A stretch of 64,000 bases of DNA from contig QCGO01000001.1 in NCBI GenBank assembly GCA_003279855.1, positions 372,001 to 436,000 of the forward strand, read 5' to 3'. The DNA comes from Prochlorococcus sp. AG-388-E21. Lineage in GTDB: Bacteria; Cyanobacteriota; Cyanobacteriia; PCC-6307; Cyanobiaceae. Position 1 is the stretch's first letter, and the number at the start of each line of letters is the position of its first letter. The notes below the pieces were generated by a model. The model searched no databases, had not been told where the DNA came from, and saw only the letters and a program-made list of their open reading frames with translations. Positions 28,056-63,028 of this stretch are shown piece after piece. The translations under genes were made by a program, and so were the position numbers.

Positions 28056-28102
28056 AGTAAAAACAAGAAACCCTTCCAGAAATTCCCACTACTAGAAGGG
28101 TT
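28056..28102 (-). terminator. Rho-independent terminator of the gloA unit
   Basis: Arms AACCCTTC and GAAGGGTT (28069-28076 and 28095-28102) enclose a 18-base loop. On the minus strand the hairpin is followed by a T-rich tract. It closes transcription that comes from gloA and the 50-aa gene. Confidence 0.7.
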
Positions 28103-28145
28103 ATTAAATTGAATACACTACTATACGTAATCAATCTATGTCTTG

Positions 28146-28190
28146 GAGTTGAACATATATTCAACTCATTGAGGTTTGGCCTCAATTAAT
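28146..28190. repeat. Two tandem hairpins downstream of the gloA unit
   Basis: GAGTTGAA/TTCAACTC with a 6-base loop is followed at once by ATTGAGG/CCTCAAT with a 5-base loop. Together with the terminator at 28056-28102 they could form the body of a roughly 130-nt 3'-UTR-derived RNA on the minus strand. Confidence 0.45.
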
Positions 28191-34358: not shown

Positions 34359-34437
34359 CTATTTTCTCCGGTTTCGCCCAAGTCCCCGTTCCATGGCTTG
34401 AGTCGATTTGCGGCTTGCATTATTACAAGTTGAACGT
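34359..34437 (-). promoter_or_regulatory. Candidate glutamine-II (Downstream-peptide) riboswitch leader
   Basis: This is a GC-rich patch in an AT-rich genome, directly upstream of the 33-codon gene. On the minus strand it begins CGTTCA, has a CTTG/CAAG hairpin, then CGCAAATCGACTC, and closes with GGAACG, which can pair with CGTTC as P1. The distal GGACTTGG can pair with CAAGCC as a pseudoknot, and the ribosome site GGAG lies just after. Position, P1 bases and pseudoknot potential match the Downstream-peptide/Yfr6 motif as I remember it. I could not align it to a covariance model. Confidence 0.5.
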
Positions 34438-34441
34438 TTTG

Positions 34442-57897: not shown

Positions 57898-59088
57898 ATG
57901 AATTTAAAAAAAAATATTGATAATATAAAGAAAAATTATTCAATAGGAATAATTGGAGGTGGCCAATTAGCTTTAATGCTTGCTGAAGCTGCAAACAATA
58001 GAGGAATAAAAGTATGTGTACAAACTAAATCTTCCAATGATCCAGCAGGTTCAAAAGCAGATTATGTAATTGAAGCTGATCCCTTAAAGGTAAAAGGGAA
58101 TAAGGACTTAATTAAAGAGTGCGAAAAAATTATTTTTGAAAATGAATGGATTAAAATTGAAAAATTGAATTTAATTGAGTCTAAAGATATTTTTGTACCA
58201 AGCCTTGAATCAATTCAACCTTTGGTAGATAGAATCTCTCAAAAAATATTAATAGAAAGATTGAACCTCCCATCACCAAGATGGAAACCAATAGAAGAGT
58301 TTAAAAGTCTTAATGATGAAGAAATTGAGTATTGGAATTTTCCTCTAATGATTAAATCTTATAAAGGAGGATATGACGGTAAAGGAAATACAAAAATCAA
58401 TACTAAAGAAGATTTGAATTCTTTTTTTGTTGAGACCAATTCAGAAGAATGGATAATTGAAGAATGGGTTGATTATAAAAATGAGTTTGCTTTAGTAGGA
58501 TCAAGAGATTTTGATGGAACAATAAGATTCTTTCCGGTTGTCGAGACATTCCAAAAAAATAATATTTGTGATTGGGTTTTGTCTCCAGCTGAAATTGATT
58601 ATGATTTAGAGACTTTTGCGAAAAATATTTTCTCATCAATAGTAAATGAACTTGATTATGTAGGAGTGATGGGAATTGAATTCTTTTTTGGTGATAAAGG
58701 ACTATTAATTAATGAAATAGCCCCTAGAACTCATAATTCAGCACACTTTTCTATTGAAGCTTGTTCATCAAGCCAGTTCGATCAATATGTTTGTATATCA
58801 TCAGGAATCAAGCCTCCCGAAATAATAATGCATTCCCAAGGATCTTTAATGATAAATTTACTAGGTTTAAATAAAAAATTTCCTTTGTCCATAAAAAAAA
58901 GATTAGAATTGTTATCTCAAATCGGAGGTTCTAATATCCATTGGTATGGTAAATCTAAAGAAAGTGTTGGACGGAAAATGGCCCATATAACGTTTTTACT
59001 TAACGAAGATAATCAGTCGAAAAGAGTTGAAAAATCAAAAGAAATTTTAAATCAGGTAAGAGAGATTTGGCCATCTCCAAATGACTAA
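57898..59088 (+). CDS. purK: N5-carboxyaminoimidazole ribonucleotide synthase
   Basis: The ATP-grasp enzyme that carboxylates AIR in purine synthesis. The 396-aa protein has IGIIGGGQLALMLAEAANNRGI near the N-terminus, the ATP-grasp lid (LMIKSYKGGYDGKGNTKI), and the active-site EIAPRTHNSAHFSIEACSSSQFDQYV. 6S RNA lies immediately downstream on the same strand, the arrangement seen in other cyanobacteria. Confidence 0.94.
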   Translation: MNLKKNIDNIKKNYSIGIIGGGQLALMLAEAANNRGIKVCVQTKSSNDPAGSKADYVIEADPLKVKGNKDLIKECEKIIFENEWIKIEKLNLIESKDIFVPSLESIQPLVDRISQKILIERLNLPSPRWKPIEEFKSLNDEEIEYWNFPLMIKSYKGGYDGKGNTKINTKEDLNSFFVETNSEEWIIEEWVDYKNEFALVGSRDFDGTIRFFPVVETFQKNNICDWVLSPAEIDYDLETFAKNIFSSIVNELDYVGVMGIEFFFGDKGLLINEIAPRTHNSAHFSIEACSSSQFDQYVCISSGIKPPEIIMHSQGSLMINLLGLNKKFPLSIKKRLELLSQIGGSNIHWYGKSKESVGRKMAHITFLLNEDNQSKRVEKSKEILNQVREIWPSPND

Positions 59089-59109
59089 AGAAATAAGTTA
59101 ATATTTACT

Positions 59110-59285
59110 TACTGGATCTTTGGTCAAGTTCTTCTTTATGTGCTCTGATCTGACTCTTTTTCGACTTGAGGAGACTGTCGTGATGTGGACGTAAACCAAT
59201 CCTGTAATTGGAAACGAAAGCCCACTTTGACTCCTCTTCTGGCTTTTCCAGGTCGATGCATCAGAGAACTGGCGGGGATTCGGTG
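59110..59285 (+). ncRNA. ssaA: 6S RNA (Yfr7)
   Basis: A roughly 175-nt segment that folds as one long imperfect hairpin. The 5' side ATCTTT, AGTTCT and GATC/GAC blocks pair with 3' side GGGGAT, AGAACT and GTCGAT. A central segment closes with GAGGAG/CTCCTC (about 59171-59176 and 59231-59236), which leaves a bulge as expected for a regulator that mimics an open promoter. Position directly after purK is the cyanobacterial 6S location. Ends are approximate, chosen by pairing, with TAATAT upstream as a possible -10. It binds RNA polymerase holoenzyme by family. Confidence 0.75.
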
Positions 59286-59336
59286 TTACCTACCAAACTG
59301 CTTGCTATCACTTGCATTTGGTAGGTAATTTTATTT
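59286..59336 (+). terminator. Strong terminator after 6S RNA
   Basis: 12-base perfect arms TTACCTACCAAA and TTTGGTAGGTAA (59286-59297 and 59317-59328) with a 19-base loop are followed by TTTTATTTT. Confidence 0.85.
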
Positions 59337-59478
59337 TAAGAATTAAGTGTGCAGGACTAGAATGCAGGACCAAGTTGCCAATTCAGGTACATCTTTATTT
59401 TTCTAATCGGTGGGAGTATAAAGAATACAGGATTCAAAAGCACTCACCTACTTTTAGATAATGAGTGCATAAGACTCG

Positions 59479-59513
59479 AAAGAGGCAATTAAATGCCCCT
59501 TTATTTTTTTTTA
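59479..59513 (+). terminator. Second plus-strand terminator
   Basis: AGAGGCA/TGCCCCT stem with an AT-loop is followed by a long T-run. It implies a plus-strand transcript over about 59340-59500, in which I find no gene longer than 15 codons, so a small RNA or readthrough leader is possible. Confidence 0.6.
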
Positions 59514-59544
59514 GATTTGAGTATCTATTGGCAATAAATTAGAC

Positions 59545-59640
59545 AAAAAAAGACCCCTATTTCTAGAGGTCTTTTTCTGGTTTTACCGAATCAAGTGTTT
59601 CCTTGTTTCCACTTTTTTAGTAAAACCTCTCCTACACACA
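59545..59640 (-). ncRNA. yfr2: Yfr2-family small RNA, copy A
   Basis: Minus-strand RNA of about 95 nt. The 5' part GTGTGTAGGAGAGG is followed by a stem GGTTTTAC/GTAAAACC whose loop carries the family element GGAAACAAGGAAACA. A terminator hairpin then follows (AAAAAGACC/GGTCTTTTT with a T-run; arms at plus 59545-59576). The repeated GGAAACA is the hallmark of Yfr2-Yfr5. It is about 80% identical to copy B at 62931. Confidence 0.82.
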
Positions 59641-59741
59641 CATTTACAATATGCCATATTTTTACCTTTCGTGGAAGGGGGTGAGTAATATTACTTAATT
59701 GTCACATATACTAGTTATACTTTTTAAGAATTAATTGCATT

Positions 59742-59815
59742 AAAAAACACCCTAATTCTTTCGAATAGGGGTGTTTAGTGATCAGAAATTAGTGTGTGAG
59801 GAGTTTCTGATGTAT
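59742..59815 (-). ncRNA. yfr10: Yfr10-like small RNA (Yfr1 motif), copy A
   Basis: Minus-strand RNA. The stem ATCAGAAA/TTTCTGAT carries a loop CTCCTCACACACTAA, which includes ACTCCTCACAC, the strictly conserved Yfr1 core motif. A terminator hairpin AACACCCCTA/TAGGGTGTT with a T-run follows (plus 59745-59775). It is not in the guaB-trxA location of Yfr1; Yfr10 family members share the motif and vary in structure, so Yfr10 is the best name. It lies just upstream of copy A of Yfr2 in transcription order. Confidence 0.72.
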
Positions 59816-59915
59816 TTAATCTAATAGAAAAAATCTCAATTGACTGCAGTATTTACACCATCTTTAATTTTTTGATTTTGACGGATTAATTAAACATAAA
59901 ATGTAAGATAGAAAT

Positions 59916-60029
59916 TTATTTTGTATTTATGTTTTTTGTAATTCTTAGGTAAACATATAAACCAATACCAAGAAGAAAAGCATTTAAATAGTTATGCCAA
60001 GTAGGAAATATTTGATGTAGTAATTCCAT
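59916..60029 (-). CDS. Tiny membrane protein, 37 aa
   Basis: MELLHQIFPTWHNYLNAFLL then GIGLYVYLRI: a single hydrophobic helix with polar ends. The codon pattern is clean and the position between the small RNAs and pyrE is on the pyrE strand. No family is named. Confidence 0.5.
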   Translation of the reverse strand: MELLHQIFPTWHNYLNAFLLGIGLYVYLRITKNINTK

Positions 60030-60135
60030 TCTTTAACCAATTAAATAGATAATAAGTGTCATTATCTTTTCAGTAATACTCCTTACTTACTCCCTACCTC
60101 CTTATTGGTACAAATTTTTGGACAGTCCCAACAGT

Positions 60136-60675
60136 TCATTCAATAATATCCTCTAATTTGTATAGAGAAATAAATTCTATTTTGTTATCTACCCATACAA
60201 TTTGATCCTCTATTCTATCAACGATTGCAACAACGCGATTAACAATGTAACCTGCATCACGCAAAACATTTACGGCTTTGATTGCACTACTGCCTGTTGT
60301 AGTTACATCTTCTAATACTGTAACGATAGATCCTTTAGGTGGCTTATTACCTTCAATAACTTCTTTTGTTCCATATCCTTTCGGATTCTTTCTTACGATC
60401 AAAGCGTCAATATGTTTATTTGAGTAGTATGCTTTCTGCGCGATACCACAAACTAAAGGATCAGCACCTAGTGTAAGTCCACCAACTGCTGCAGACTTAT
60501 CTTCTATATGTTCAAACATCAAATGGGATATAAGTGCGTTTCCCTCACAAGATAAACTAACAGGTTTACAGTTAATGTAATGCTCTGATTCTTTACCAGA
60601 AGATAAGGTAAATCTTCCTTTCTTGTATGCTCTTTCTTTTATAAGATTTAGTAATGTCTTTCTATGAATATCCAT
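60136..60675 (-). CDS. pyrE: Orotate phosphoribosyltransferase
   Basis: Adds PRPP to orotate to make OMP in pyrimidine synthesis. The 179-aa protein has FTLSSGKESEHYINCKPVSL near residues 22-41 and the PRPP-binding loop TVLEDVTTTGSSAIKAV near 119-135, plus VVAIVDRIE at the end of the core. It lies inside the inverted small-RNA duplication, which is notable for a core gene. Confidence 0.93.
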   Translation of the reverse strand: MDIHRKTLLNLIKERAYKKGRFTLSSGKESEHYINCKPVSLSCEGNALISHLMFEHIEDKSAAVGGLTLGADPLVCGIAQKAYYSNKHIDALIVRKNPKGYGTKEVIEGNKPPKGSIVTVLEDVTTTGSSAIKAVNVLRDAGYIVNRVVAIVDRIEDQIVWVDNKIEFISLYKLEDIIE

Positions 60676-60847
60676 CAGAGAATTAATTGTCTTGTTGCTT
60701 TTGATAATTTACCAATAATCTCAAAAAAAAGTCTCCTTCAGAGTCGACTGTTTAAATTTTGTATTTCTTTTTTTCTCAACAATAATAGTTTAAAAGTGAT
60801 TTTTTCCTTTCAATAAGATATTTACTATTGATTAGTGTGAGTAAATC

Positions 60848-61262
60848 TACTTTGCAATTATTCCCATTGCTTTTCTTAGATCTTCAGTTGTAGGTCTGTT
60901 ATACATCATTAATACCTCTGATATCCCTGGAATCTTATTTCTTACTACATCCTAAATCCTGTAAGGATAAACACCCTCATTTATTAGTGCAGTAATGCCA
61001 AATCTTCTTAAGTCATGTGATGGTAAACCATATTTATTTCTGAACTCATTGCAATGATGATGTCCCCATTAATCATCACTAATCTTATATCTATTCGGCC
61101 AGATAGGATCATCTGAACCTTTTATTAATGGCATGTCTTTGAGATGTATATAAAGCTTGTTATTGCGACGTTTCTTAGGAGATATTTTATTTACTTCTTT
61201 ATGGATGTCTTACCAAAGTGCCTAGCCAAAATCCCGAAACAATGAGCCTTCCCAAGTAAATA
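60848..61262 (-). pseudogene. Tyrosine recombinase (integrase) relic
   Basis: Minus-strand C-terminal catalytic domain with several in-frame stops: KKRRNNKLYIHLKDMPL, WPNRYKISDD then stop, WGHHHCNEFRNKYGLPSHDLRRFGITALIN (the H-x-L-R box), VYPYRI then stop, DVVRNKIPGISEVLMMYNRP, where the final Tyr box lies. It ends at a TAG (60848-60850). At least three stops in the readable part make it inactive. Confidence 0.72.
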
Positions 61263-61330
61263 AAAGTTAGTCATAATAAATAGACTGGAGTTATTCAACA
61301 GATTGTGAGATGAATGAATTTAAGAATTAC

Positions 61331-61360
61331 TTGACATTGACAAAATAAGTCTGCTATAAA
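61331..61360 (+). promoter_or_regulatory. Sigma-70-like promoter for the DUF1651 gene
   Basis: TTGACA (61331-61336), an 18-base spacer, then TATAAA (61355-61360), 27 bases before the ATG. It is one of the clearest promoters in the window. Confidence 0.6.
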
Positions 61361-61387
61361 TAATAGTACAAGTGTATTACTTACTAG

Positions 61388-61687
61388 ATGACTCTTGGAG
61401 GAGCTAATGTTTGGTCTAATTTTTCTTATGGCAGTCTTATTGACTCCCCAAATGGCTGGATACTTAACCCGCAAAATAGCTATTTAATCTTGTTTGAAAG
61501 ATGCAAGAAATCTGTACGAAAAAACATCAAAGTCTATACCCATCTTTTCTATGCAAACCAAATGGGAGAACCTGGTCGACTTAAAAATACAAGACTTCAT
61601 GATCTGGAATCTGCGTTTGAAACATGGAATGAATTAATAGCTGGAGGATGGACTGAAGTTACAAATCAATTTCAAGAATCTGAATGA
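61388..61687 (+). CDS. DUF1651-family protein
   Basis: A 99-aa protein with SPNGWILNPQNSYLILFERCKKS, the typical DUF1651 opening (G-W-L-x-x-P ... L-x-x-F-x-R-D). It is found in picocyanobacterial islands; function unknown. It overlaps the next ORF by 4 bases (ATGA). Confidence 0.75.
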   Translation: MTLGGANVWSNFSYGSLIDSPNGWILNPQNSYLILFERCKKSVRKNIKVYTHLFYANQMGEPGRLKNTRLHDLESAFETWNELIAGGWTEVTNQFQESE

Positions 61688-61911
61688 ATGAGCGAGACCA
61701 ATGGGACTATTTAAAGGAAGAGACATTAACAAGAAAACGAAAAAAGATTTTTATTACTTGCAATCACTTTAGTTACAGCAGGAATGTGGATTTTGCCAAT
61801 GTCTTGATTTGTCCAATTCACGAAAAACTTATTCCTCAGGGTGATCACTTAATAAAGGGATGTAAATGTTGGAGAGAAAATAGAACTATCTTTGCACCTG
61901 AAGCTGCTTAA
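61684..61911 (+). CDS. Small Cys/His-rich hypothetical protein, 75 aa
   Basis: Coupled to the DUF1651 gene by an ATGA overlap. The four Cys and several His (ITCNHFSY, LICPIHEKL, KGCKCWRENR) suggest a possible metal site. No family is recognised. Confidence 0.65.
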   Translation: MNERDQWDYLKEETLTRKRKKIFITCNHFSYSRNVDFANVLICPIHEKLIPQGDHLIKGCKCWRENRTIFAPEAA

Positions 61912-61972
61912 CAAAAGGCATTAATAAATATTATTTATGCTTAAATATCTTTTAGTTCTTATTACCTTATAA

Positions 61973-62095
61973 ATGCCTTATTCAGAAACTAAAGTAATTA
62001 TTGGTGGTTTAGCCCATATACCAGTACTTATTTTTCTTTTTAATTTCATTAAAAATAAATTTGAAGCTAGGTCCCAATCAACTTCTATTAGTTAA
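61973..62095 (+). CDS. Tiny membrane protein, 40 aa
   Basis: MPYSETKVIIGGLAHIPVLI opens a hydrophobic helix, followed by a basic tail (IKNKFEARSQ). It is small but well shaped for a single-pass protein. Confidence 0.45.
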   Translation: MPYSETKVIIGGLAHIPVLIFLFNFIKNKFEARSQSTSIS

Positions 62096-62121
62096 TGTAT
62101 TTGCCTTATATATATTTTGAG

Positions 62122-62268
62122 TTATTTAGCTTTCTTTAAATAGAGATTCTTTTTATTAGCCTGATCTGATGTAAACAACATAACTAAAATAGTACCAACT
62201 AAAAATGAAAACATCGTTGTTACCTCTAAAACCGTCACCATTTCACTAGGCAAATAATTTGTAAACAT
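62122..62268 (-). CDS. Tiny membrane protein, 48 aa
   Basis: MFTNYLPSEMVTVLEVTTMF precedes a hydrophobic helix (SFLVGTILVMLF) and a Lys-rich end. Opposite strand to its neighbours. No family is recognised. Confidence 0.45.
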   Translation of the reverse strand: MFTNYLPSEMVTVLEVTTMFSFLVGTILVMLFTSDQANKKNLYLKKAK

Positions 62269-62417
62269 AATAAAGTGAATCTCTTATTTCAAACGTAGCA
62301 ACTATTTAATGTTTAACCATGGGTAATAACCTTATTTATTAAAGGTTTTAACATTGAGTTTATAAAAATAGAAAATAACACTCGCTAAAACAACTATATT
62401 ACTACTAATATTTTTAT

Positions 62418-62714
62418 ATGAAAATTTCTGTCAACTTAGCTAATTCAGTCGTAGATCCAAAGACAATAAGAAGAAAATATCCAGAAGTAAGGATAATAGT
62501 TCTTGATGATAATTTTAATACGTTTGAACATGTGGCAAATTGTCTTGTAAGTATTATCCCTGGAATAAGTGAAAAAAAATCATGGTTACTTGCGCTCGAA
62601 GTTGATAGGGAAGGATCAGCAGAAGTATGGAGAGGACCCTTTGAGCAGGCAGAACTATATCATCAGCAACTTCTCATCAAAGGATTAACTATGGCACCAA
62701 TTGAAAAAATATAA
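62418..62714 (+). CDS. clpS: ClpS-like adaptor, second type
   Basis: Delivers N-end-rule substrates to ClpC/ClpP. The 98-aa protein has the ClpS core VRIIVLDDNFNTFEHVANCLVSIIPG (D-D-N-x-x-T) and a Gly-closing AEVWRGPFEQAELYHQQLLIKGLTMAPI. Cyanobacteria have ClpS1 and a shorter, divergent ClpS2; this one fits ClpS2 in size and form. It is the last gene before copy B of the small-RNA pair. Confidence 0.85.
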   Translation: MKISVNLANSVVDPKTIRRKYPEVRIIVLDDNFNTFEHVANCLVSIIPGISEKKSWLLALEVDREGSAEVWRGPFEQAELYHQQLLIKGLTMAPIEKI

Positions 62715-62747
62715 AAATTATTAAATACAGGGGTGAATTGATTTTTT

Positions 62748-62840
62748 CAGAGTATTAGCTATATAGGAACTCTTCTCACACTCATTTCTAATCACTAAAC
62801 GCGCTGATTGAAAACATGGGGTTTTTTTATTACGTTATAG
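62748..62840 (+). ncRNA. Yfr10-like small RNA, degenerate copy B
   Basis: Plus-strand homologue of copy A with AACTCTTCTCACACTCATTTC, one change from the CTCCTCACAC core. The terminator of copy A is replaced by a weak AAAC/GTTT pairing before a T-run, so the RNA may not be made or ended efficiently. Confidence 0.45.
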
Positions 62841-62930
62841 ATTCAAGAGTTGTAATTATCACATAATACGGATAAGTAACGATACTCACCTTCATCCACA
62901 AAAAAGAAATATATGTTATATATTAAAAAA

Positions 62931-63028
62931 GTGTGTAGGAGAAGTTTTATTAAAACAGTGGAAACAAGGAAACACTTGTTTTATTAAAACTATTTAAAGA
63001 TCTCTAGAAATAGGGATCTTTTTTTATT
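62931..63028 (+). ncRNA. yfr2: Yfr2-family small RNA, copy B
   Basis: GTGTGTAGGAGAAG, a stem GTTTTA/TAAAAC, the GTGGAAACAAGGAAACAC loop element, and a terminator AAAGATC/GGATCTTT followed by T-run. A good -10 (TATATT) lies at about 62919. Spacing and order relative to the Yfr10-like copy are the same as in copy A. Confidence 0.82.

Follow-up and report, generated by a model that had tools for sequence, protein, structure and literature searches.

Why does a Prochlorococcus genome hold two similar small RNA units that point outwards from a few kilobases of DNA between them? The question is raised by a 64,000-nt stretch of Prochlorococcus sp. AG-388-E21 (contig QCGO01000001.1, positions 372,001 to 436,000 of the forward strand), here called the window. 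It contains two oppositely oriented units, 3.3 kb from one another, each with a Yfr10-type and a Yfr2 small RNA gene. Copy A occupies 59545-59830 on the minus strand and copy B 62740-63028 on the plus strand. A preliminary description, made from the letters alone, had proposed that one segment was duplicated and inverted at this place. Our analysis led to a different answer. A and B are probably two of four dispersed units, old paralogues that now lie close together in a variable purK-clpS island, and not the product of a fresh duplication.

The paired homology itself was confirmed. Pairwise alignment of the reverse complement of A with B gave 233 identical positions in 315 columns (74%) and a score of 199, against 21.6 ± 2.7 (maximum 35) for 300 shuffles. 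The longest exact run common to both copies was 22 nt. Since the homology spans Yfr10, the spacer and Yfr2, reaching far outside the Yfr2 loop, and scores far above the shuffles, it is real. Both copies have the same order of Yfr10, a spacer with an operator-like patch, and Yfr2. By Rfam coordinates the gap from Yfr10 to Yfr2 is 88 nt in A and 91 nt in B, so that the equal order, orientation and spacing described before were borne out. Genome-wide, four Yfr2 and four Yfr10 matches were found at four shared places, one of the Yfr10 matches lying below the cut-off.

That match is in copy B. The Rfam scan placed both Yfr2 genes and Yfr10-A above their cut-offs. Yfr2-A with its terminator hairpin lies at 59545..59643 (-), the transcript ends being inferred from the hairpin and the Rfam match; it scored 64.0 bits with RF01701 (Yfr2/Cyano-1) at 59574-59643, where the cut-off is 41. 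Its terminator folded with -21.2 kcal/mol. Yfr2-B at 62929..63028 (+) scored 70.7 bits at 62929-62996. Sequences and folds gave the expected Yfr2 features: an unpaired 5' end with GUGUGUAGGAG, a 12-nt loop on a long stem, and then the terminator; in the predicted fold of Yfr2-B, part of the GGAG in the 5' end was base-paired. Yfr10-A (59732..59811, -) reached 85.5 bits with RF02362 (cut-off 43). It has a predicted stem-loop, which exposes the loop motif ACUCCUCACAC(AC), and a terminator of its own. Yfr10-B (62761..62837, +) scored 37.3 bits, below the same cut-off, and we counted it as a degenerate homologue outside the family. Its loop reads ACUCUUCUCACAC, the motif is not exposed in the predicted fold, and both the canonical stem-loop and the terminator hairpin are absent. 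The earlier idea of a duplicated unit of two small RNAs was thus upheld for A, which is complete. It failed for B, which with a degenerate Yfr10 is not a full two-RNA unit.

The intact motif is missing throughout the lineage of B. The motif ACTCCTCACACAC was intact in none of the 10 B rows of the comparison described below, in 28 of 31 units of five other groups, and in 19 of 25 ungrouped units. In the B row of MED4, Yfr10 is deleted, and in that of genome G139 it is displaced and altered. Because Yfr10-B is degenerate, copy B probably yields mainly Yfr2, as judged from the sequence. The B-lineage loops were also compared with random mutants at equal distance. At the eight loci they were mildly better for pairing with Yfr2 (mean z -1.2), with 748, 189, 176, 165, 108, 68, 51 and 9 mutants per 1000 as low. 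As this advantage is only mild, selection for Yfr2 pairing in these loops is not claimed.

The relationship of A and B was analyzed in a tree of 66 units. Forty-one rows fell into six groups, B and five others labelled A, Y4, C, X and Y10; the labels were defined here, and X is no clade. Ten rows make up the B clade, namely window B and nine units from other genomes, including yfr3 of MED4 (genome G010, recognised by its small RNAs at the published coordinates), with support of 99/100. The A clade has nine rows, window A and eight others, with support of 86/97 in the tree of 66 units and 78/93 with 39 rows. The latter set, which omits MED4 yfr3 and G139, the two B rows that lack a neighbouring Yfr10, was used for approximately unbiased (AU) tests. 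Forcing the window's own A and B to be sisters cost 188.8 log-likelihood units. The tree and this test rule out a recent local inverted duplication, be it in this genome or in close relatives of it, and the earlier claim that one segment was duplicated and inverted here was not sustained. In line with the separate clades, A is 87% identical to the yfr12-yfr4 unit of MED4 over 317 bp, versus 74% to B. Forcing A together with the yfr4 lineage was 18.2 log-likelihood units worse (AU p 0.087), and forcing the whole A and B lineages into one clade 7.6 units worse (AU p 0.057). Neither clade was rejected, so the A and B lineages may share a very ancient origin.

We then compared the locus in other genomes. 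Among nine loci holding purK, clpS and B, unit A was found only in the window, and purK, clpS and B shared one relative orientation in all nine. The second pyrE gene, which lies between the units, had the same orientation in the three purK loci that hold it (window, G009 and G136). Both orientations of the A-B block were sought. As the 9/9 and 3/3 loci stand one way, no flipped block was seen, and the suggestion that recombination could flip the whole block found no support. Homologous flipping is unlikely because A and B are only 74% identical with a longest exact run of 22 nt. Copy B lies directly downstream of a ClpS-like gene (62418..62714, +; Pfam PF02617, 47.9 bits) and, by its sequence, tree position and the shared purK-clpS locus, is the orthologue of MED4 yfr3. 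In MED4, 56 bp take the place of window positions 59347-61359. The inverted pair thus consists of two old paralogues that have come to lie together. Such a pair was met in two examined genomes, in one of them with a truncated B.

One rearrangement was seen in G139 (L178 7590-8990), where 1.2 kb of DNA carrying Yfr2-B has been turned round with respect to Yfr10-B, one end of the inversion lying between the two. It does not amount to a flipped A-B block and is possibly an assembly artefact or chimera. The contig also bears Yfr1, which lies on a different contig or far off in the seven other B genomes in which Yfr1 was found.

An inverted duplication at this very locus, if need be a very old one, and able to flip the pyrE block, would account for the 74% inverted repeat over 315 columns and its 22-nt exact run. 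It would also fit contig G131:C55, where A (-) and a truncated B (+) again stand together, and the AU result for the joined lineages. We nevertheless consider it very improbable. Window A and window B did not group as sisters, A is confined to the window among the nine loci, and the orientations were uniform throughout. Several observations do weigh against the reading of A and B as old dispersed paralogues, one of them with a decayed Yfr10. The lineages of the units branch from a fork whose order the tree does not settle, and the one-clade constraint on A and B costs little. The motif is missing in 6 of the 25 ungrouped units, so its loss is not unique to B. At the eight B loci, Yfr10-B retains a mean pairwise identity of 81-82%, against 86% for Yfr2-B and 66% for the downstream sequence. 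The altered loop can still pair with its own Yfr2 (-17.7 versus -17.8 for the canonical loop). From these sequence comparisons, Yfr10-B is not clearly neutral, and the evidence speaks against full decay. Also, the duplex energies of full-length Yfr10 with Yfr2 were no better than those of shuffles.

The dispersed-paralogue reading, which we consider probable, runs as follows. An old duplication gave rise to dispersed Yfr10-Yfr2 units, two of which are now close in the purK-clpS island. B, of the yfr3 lineage, is the resident beside clpS, as in many relatives. A, of another lineage, lies as a cassette of about 530 bp beside purK and 6S RNA; its later arrival is suggested because most relatives with B have no A there. 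The space between them holds an integrase remnant and a cassette with a pyrE of virus type.

The cassette of A (59545..60072, -) consists of a small open reading frame (ORF), Yfr10 and Yfr2. The ORF (59916..60029, -) encodes 37 amino acids (MELLHQ...) and accompanies unit A at other loci. Among the matches listed from 266 genomes, the full-length cassette recurs at 88-90% identity in G131:C20, G009:C5, G056:C9, G132:C9 and G122:C23, and bases 2-520 of its 528 at 87% in G131:C55. At the latter locus, unit A adjoins a 6S RNA fragment, followed by ORF37, one small ORF, clpS and the truncated B. A second unit in G259, found in the search for the cassette, was without core match and was left out of the comparison. 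In the window, 6S RNA (59106..59290, +; RF00013, 90.1 bits) follows purK (57898-59088). Unit A lies within about 1 kb of 6S-purK in 3 of 19 fetched purK loci (window, G056 and G132). A stretch of 968 bp with unit A was 99.4% identical in G009:C5 and G056:C9 (L073 1-967 and L074 1186-2153). The identity stops 107 nt past Yfr2, at a GCGAGACGAAGTCGAGCGGG stretch. The purK genes of these two genomes differ much more, with 85.6% (G056) and 93.8% (G009) identity to the window purK, so the 968 bp point to a recent transfer.

The two halves of unit A did not behave alike in the trees. A and yfr4 rows needed two label changes each in the tree of the Yfr10 half and six each in that of the Yfr2 half. By their flanks, window A and G131:C20 go with A upstream but with eight yfr4-type units downstream. 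These data could be explained if dispersed units had exchanged DNA by homologous recombination or gene conversion, which would have given A a yfr4-like Yfr2 half and 3' flank. Against this, the Yfr2 half, which is short and resolves little, did not reject monophyly of A or of yfr4 (AU p 0.059 and 0.119). We regard such an exchange as quite possible, if somewhat less than probable.

Flanks of 350 nt were sorted into classes for 40 of the 66 tree units; the other 25 were left out. The 40 are the rows of the six groups less one G122:C5 row; the remaining G122:C5 row was ambiguous and has no upstream class. The flanks fell into 9 upstream classes (39 units) and 16 downstream classes (40 units). 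The multi-unit upstream classes of 11, 9, 7, 5 and 3 units have 3, 2, 4, 4 and 1 downstream classes, respectively. Three downstream classes, of 10, 7 and 2 units, have two upstream classes each. Thus both sides change, the downstream side more. The A-clade units in G231 and G123:C8 are unlike the rest of A on both sides. As controls, other small RNAs were classified in 21 genomes. For Yfr13 there were two classes on each side (11 and 12 flanks), for its paralogues three (8 flanks) and for Yfr1 one (18 flanks), the last being an easy control owing to its conserved place.

Next, the end of homology was located in pairs of the same group. It lay between -15 and +20 nt of the terminator's last T in 52 of 122 pairs drawn from 32 of the 40 units: 14 of 21 for A, 7 of 10 for C, 26 of 55 for the yfr4 type and 5 of 36 for B. 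The pairs are not independent and represent about nine changes by the class counts. The next genes after Yfr2 also differ in the A units and MED4 yfr4. Units that share their upstream side often differ past Yfr2, and homology often stops at the Yfr2 terminator; this seems to be new, and it was not seen in the two control small RNAs. Tentatively, and with considerable doubt, we propose that the units are portable cassettes (small ORF, Yfr10 and Yfr2) bordered by the end of the Yfr2 terminator. This border could be a joint for repeated exchange of island DNA in high-light Prochlorococcus (a status assigned by inference to the other genomes), perhaps via recombinases that use the Yfr2 3' end in the way of tRNA 3' ends, and the pair in the window would be one product. 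Two points tell against a moving border: constrained small ORFs occupy the upstream side, and some upstream bases went into the tree used for grouping.

A stronger version, in which integrative elements use the end of the Yfr2 gene as an attachment site and have built the surroundings of A, seems unlikely. It would agree with the halt of homology near the terminator end in many same-group pairs, with the integrase remnant in the window and with solitary Yfr2 3' ends. Such ends of 38-40 nt, without the rest of the gene, were found at two loci, shorter and weaker matches being left uncounted. One locus is common to four genomes (L366 10025-10063, L367 2944-2981, L368 274-311 and L369 2482-2519), and the other is L370 9814-9853 (-). 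Searches for the elements themselves argue the other way. The exact 26-nt pattern of the Yfr2 3' end had no match in viral contigs; a 21-nt pattern matched 50 stretches there, which are likely chance terminators. A search of phage records with the Yfr2 3' end returned 8 records, short matches in phages of other hosts, with no cyanophage among them. A crude scan of 24 loci for integrase motifs found only the remnant of G131:C20, being weak enough to miss the window's broken integrase as well. By the same weak scan no integrase was detected beside the solitary ends, and no element with both copies of the Yfr2 end on one contig was seen. Moreover, a sharp boundary could result from selection on the RNA tail. 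The idea that viruses carry the units was likewise rejected, with no exact 21- or 25-nt match in viral contigs and none in the phage records. Three of the four solitary ends at the common locus adjoin an ORF resembling a putative short-chain dehydrogenase.

If the Yfr2 3' end serves as such a joint, island turnover in a very abundant phototroph would have small RNA genes as landmarks besides tRNA genes, and island traffic would bear on the dosage of a small RNA and its antagonist. A literature search that covered few subscription papers brought up no account of a unit pair around pyrE or of a joint at the Yfr2 3' end, and the accessible portions of PMC7368042, PMC5069720 and PMC2662882 contain nothing on this arrangement.

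The spacer before Yfr2 holds a conserved near-palindromic patch, TAAGTAATATTACTCA at 59682..59697 (-) in the promoter region of Yfr2-A and TAAGTAACGATACTCA at 62873..62888 (+) in that of Yfr2-B. Across the eight B loci, the stretch 62873-62890 has a mean pairwise identity of 88%, compared with 75% in the bases preceding it and 66% in those following. Most of the 41 units have TAAGTAA..TTACTYA, intact or worn, ahead of Yfr2, and the patch is most different or worn in the MED4 Yfr10/Yfr2 group. Its dyad would fit a dimeric regulator. In PMC6778093, the GntR regulator PMM1637 is reported to bind yfr2 promoters that carry the CGRE1 motif. The patch is probably a CGRE1/GntR site, as suggested by the near-palindrome at the expected place. 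By analogy to the MED4 work, Yfr2 would be made from a promoter controlled by this dyad operator.

Adjacent Yfr10-Yfr2 pairs, their complementarity and their interaction are already published (PMC2518516 and PMC6778093). The first describes Yfr10, Yfr12 and Yfr18 next to Yfr2, Yfr4 and Yfr5 in MED4, with complementary motifs. The second gives data on the Yfr10-Yfr2 interaction and RNase E, and places Yfr10 homologues upstream of Yfr2 homologues in high-light strains. At E 0.001, we detected Yfr2 in at least 97 and Yfr10 in 95 of 101 genomes of the genus. For 20-nt windows around the motifs of Yfr10 and Yfr2, 3 to 13 of 1000 shuffles were as low. Full-length RNAduplex energies were not used as evidence for interaction. 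By analogy to MED4, Yfr10-A would expose ACUCCUCACACAC, pair with the GUGUGUAGGAG end of Yfr2, and the two RNAs would antagonise each other.

The window units resemble the MED4 pairs Yfr10-Yfr2, Yfr12-Yfr4 and Yfr18-Yfr5 in being adjacent and co-oriented, with complementary motifs, an upstream Yfr10 and an association with islands. Unlike these pairs, they stand opposed at 3.3 kb, whereas the MED4 genome has its A-like unit at 383 kb and yfr3 at 654 kb. According to PMC2518516, small RNAs that are homologous can be island-borne in one strain yet lie outside islands in another. Copy B is closest in setting to the MED4 yfr3/yfr15 locus of genomic island 2 (87% over 180 bp), with a clpS-like gene, DUF1651 and purK as neighbours. 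The MED4 locus is without unit A, the second pyrE, the integrase remnant and Yfr10-B. As reported in PMC2518516, Yfr15, which overlaps yfr3 on the opposite strand, and the neighbouring PMED4_07441 are induced in phage infection; by position, PMED4_07441 would be the clpS-like ORF. The window shows copy-by-copy change of a multi-copy Yfr2 family with Yfr10 antagonists. One unit retains both RNAs and another probably mainly Yfr2, within an island that is phage-responsive in MED4. When placed by the position given in PMC2518516, Yfr15 (L069 3302-3563) runs antisense across the end of clpS and the start of yfr3, where Yfr10-B is deleted.

The content of the DNA between the units agreed with the preliminary description, which had named pyrE, a dead integrase, DUF1651 and clpS. 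The pyrE gene is a second, virus-type copy beside the housekeeping gene. It lies at 60136-60675 within a mobile cassette (60127..60806, -) and was over the cut-off of NCBIfam TIGR00336 and below that of Pfam PF00156. The regular pyrE is located at G000:C1:46550 and is 51% identical at the amino acid level. At least 13 of the 266 genomes of the genus, this one included, carry the second-pyrE DNA with 624 or more of its 680 bases aligned at no less than 94% identity; in three of the 13 it is at purK and in ten elsewhere. Its product matched the PHROG phosphoribosyl transferase family and was 73% identical to PyrE of cyanophage P-SSM7 and up to 90% to proteins of viral contigs, among the best 80 of 156 relatives. 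The window gene is nearer to phage and viral copies, as in P-SSM7 and P-SSM2, than to the host's own. Unlike the cyanophage genes, it resides in a host island; viral neighbours were judged from listed ORFs and families only. The integrase remnant (60850..61209, -) contains stops. Its stop-free pieces had no Pfam match at E 0.1. Matching remnants are present in G009 and G131:C20, and the homologue in G131:C20 hit a PHROG integrase (4e-5) and PF00589 at only 0.074. The DUF1651 gene is at 61388..61687 (+; PF07864, 59.8 bits).

Neighbouring units were also observed in other genomes. G105 has two units in the same direction, 848 bp apart and 78% identical (L429 3559 and 4407). Two convergent units in G122:C5 are 1310 bp apart and 80% identical (L430 4331 and 5641). 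Two inverted units in G068:C15 are 100% identical at a distance of 13.7 kb (L431 1788 and 15475), which is probably an assembly artefact. The window further contains a Yfr13 small RNA at 28083-28183 (-) and a glutamine-II riboswitch at 34377-34439 (-).

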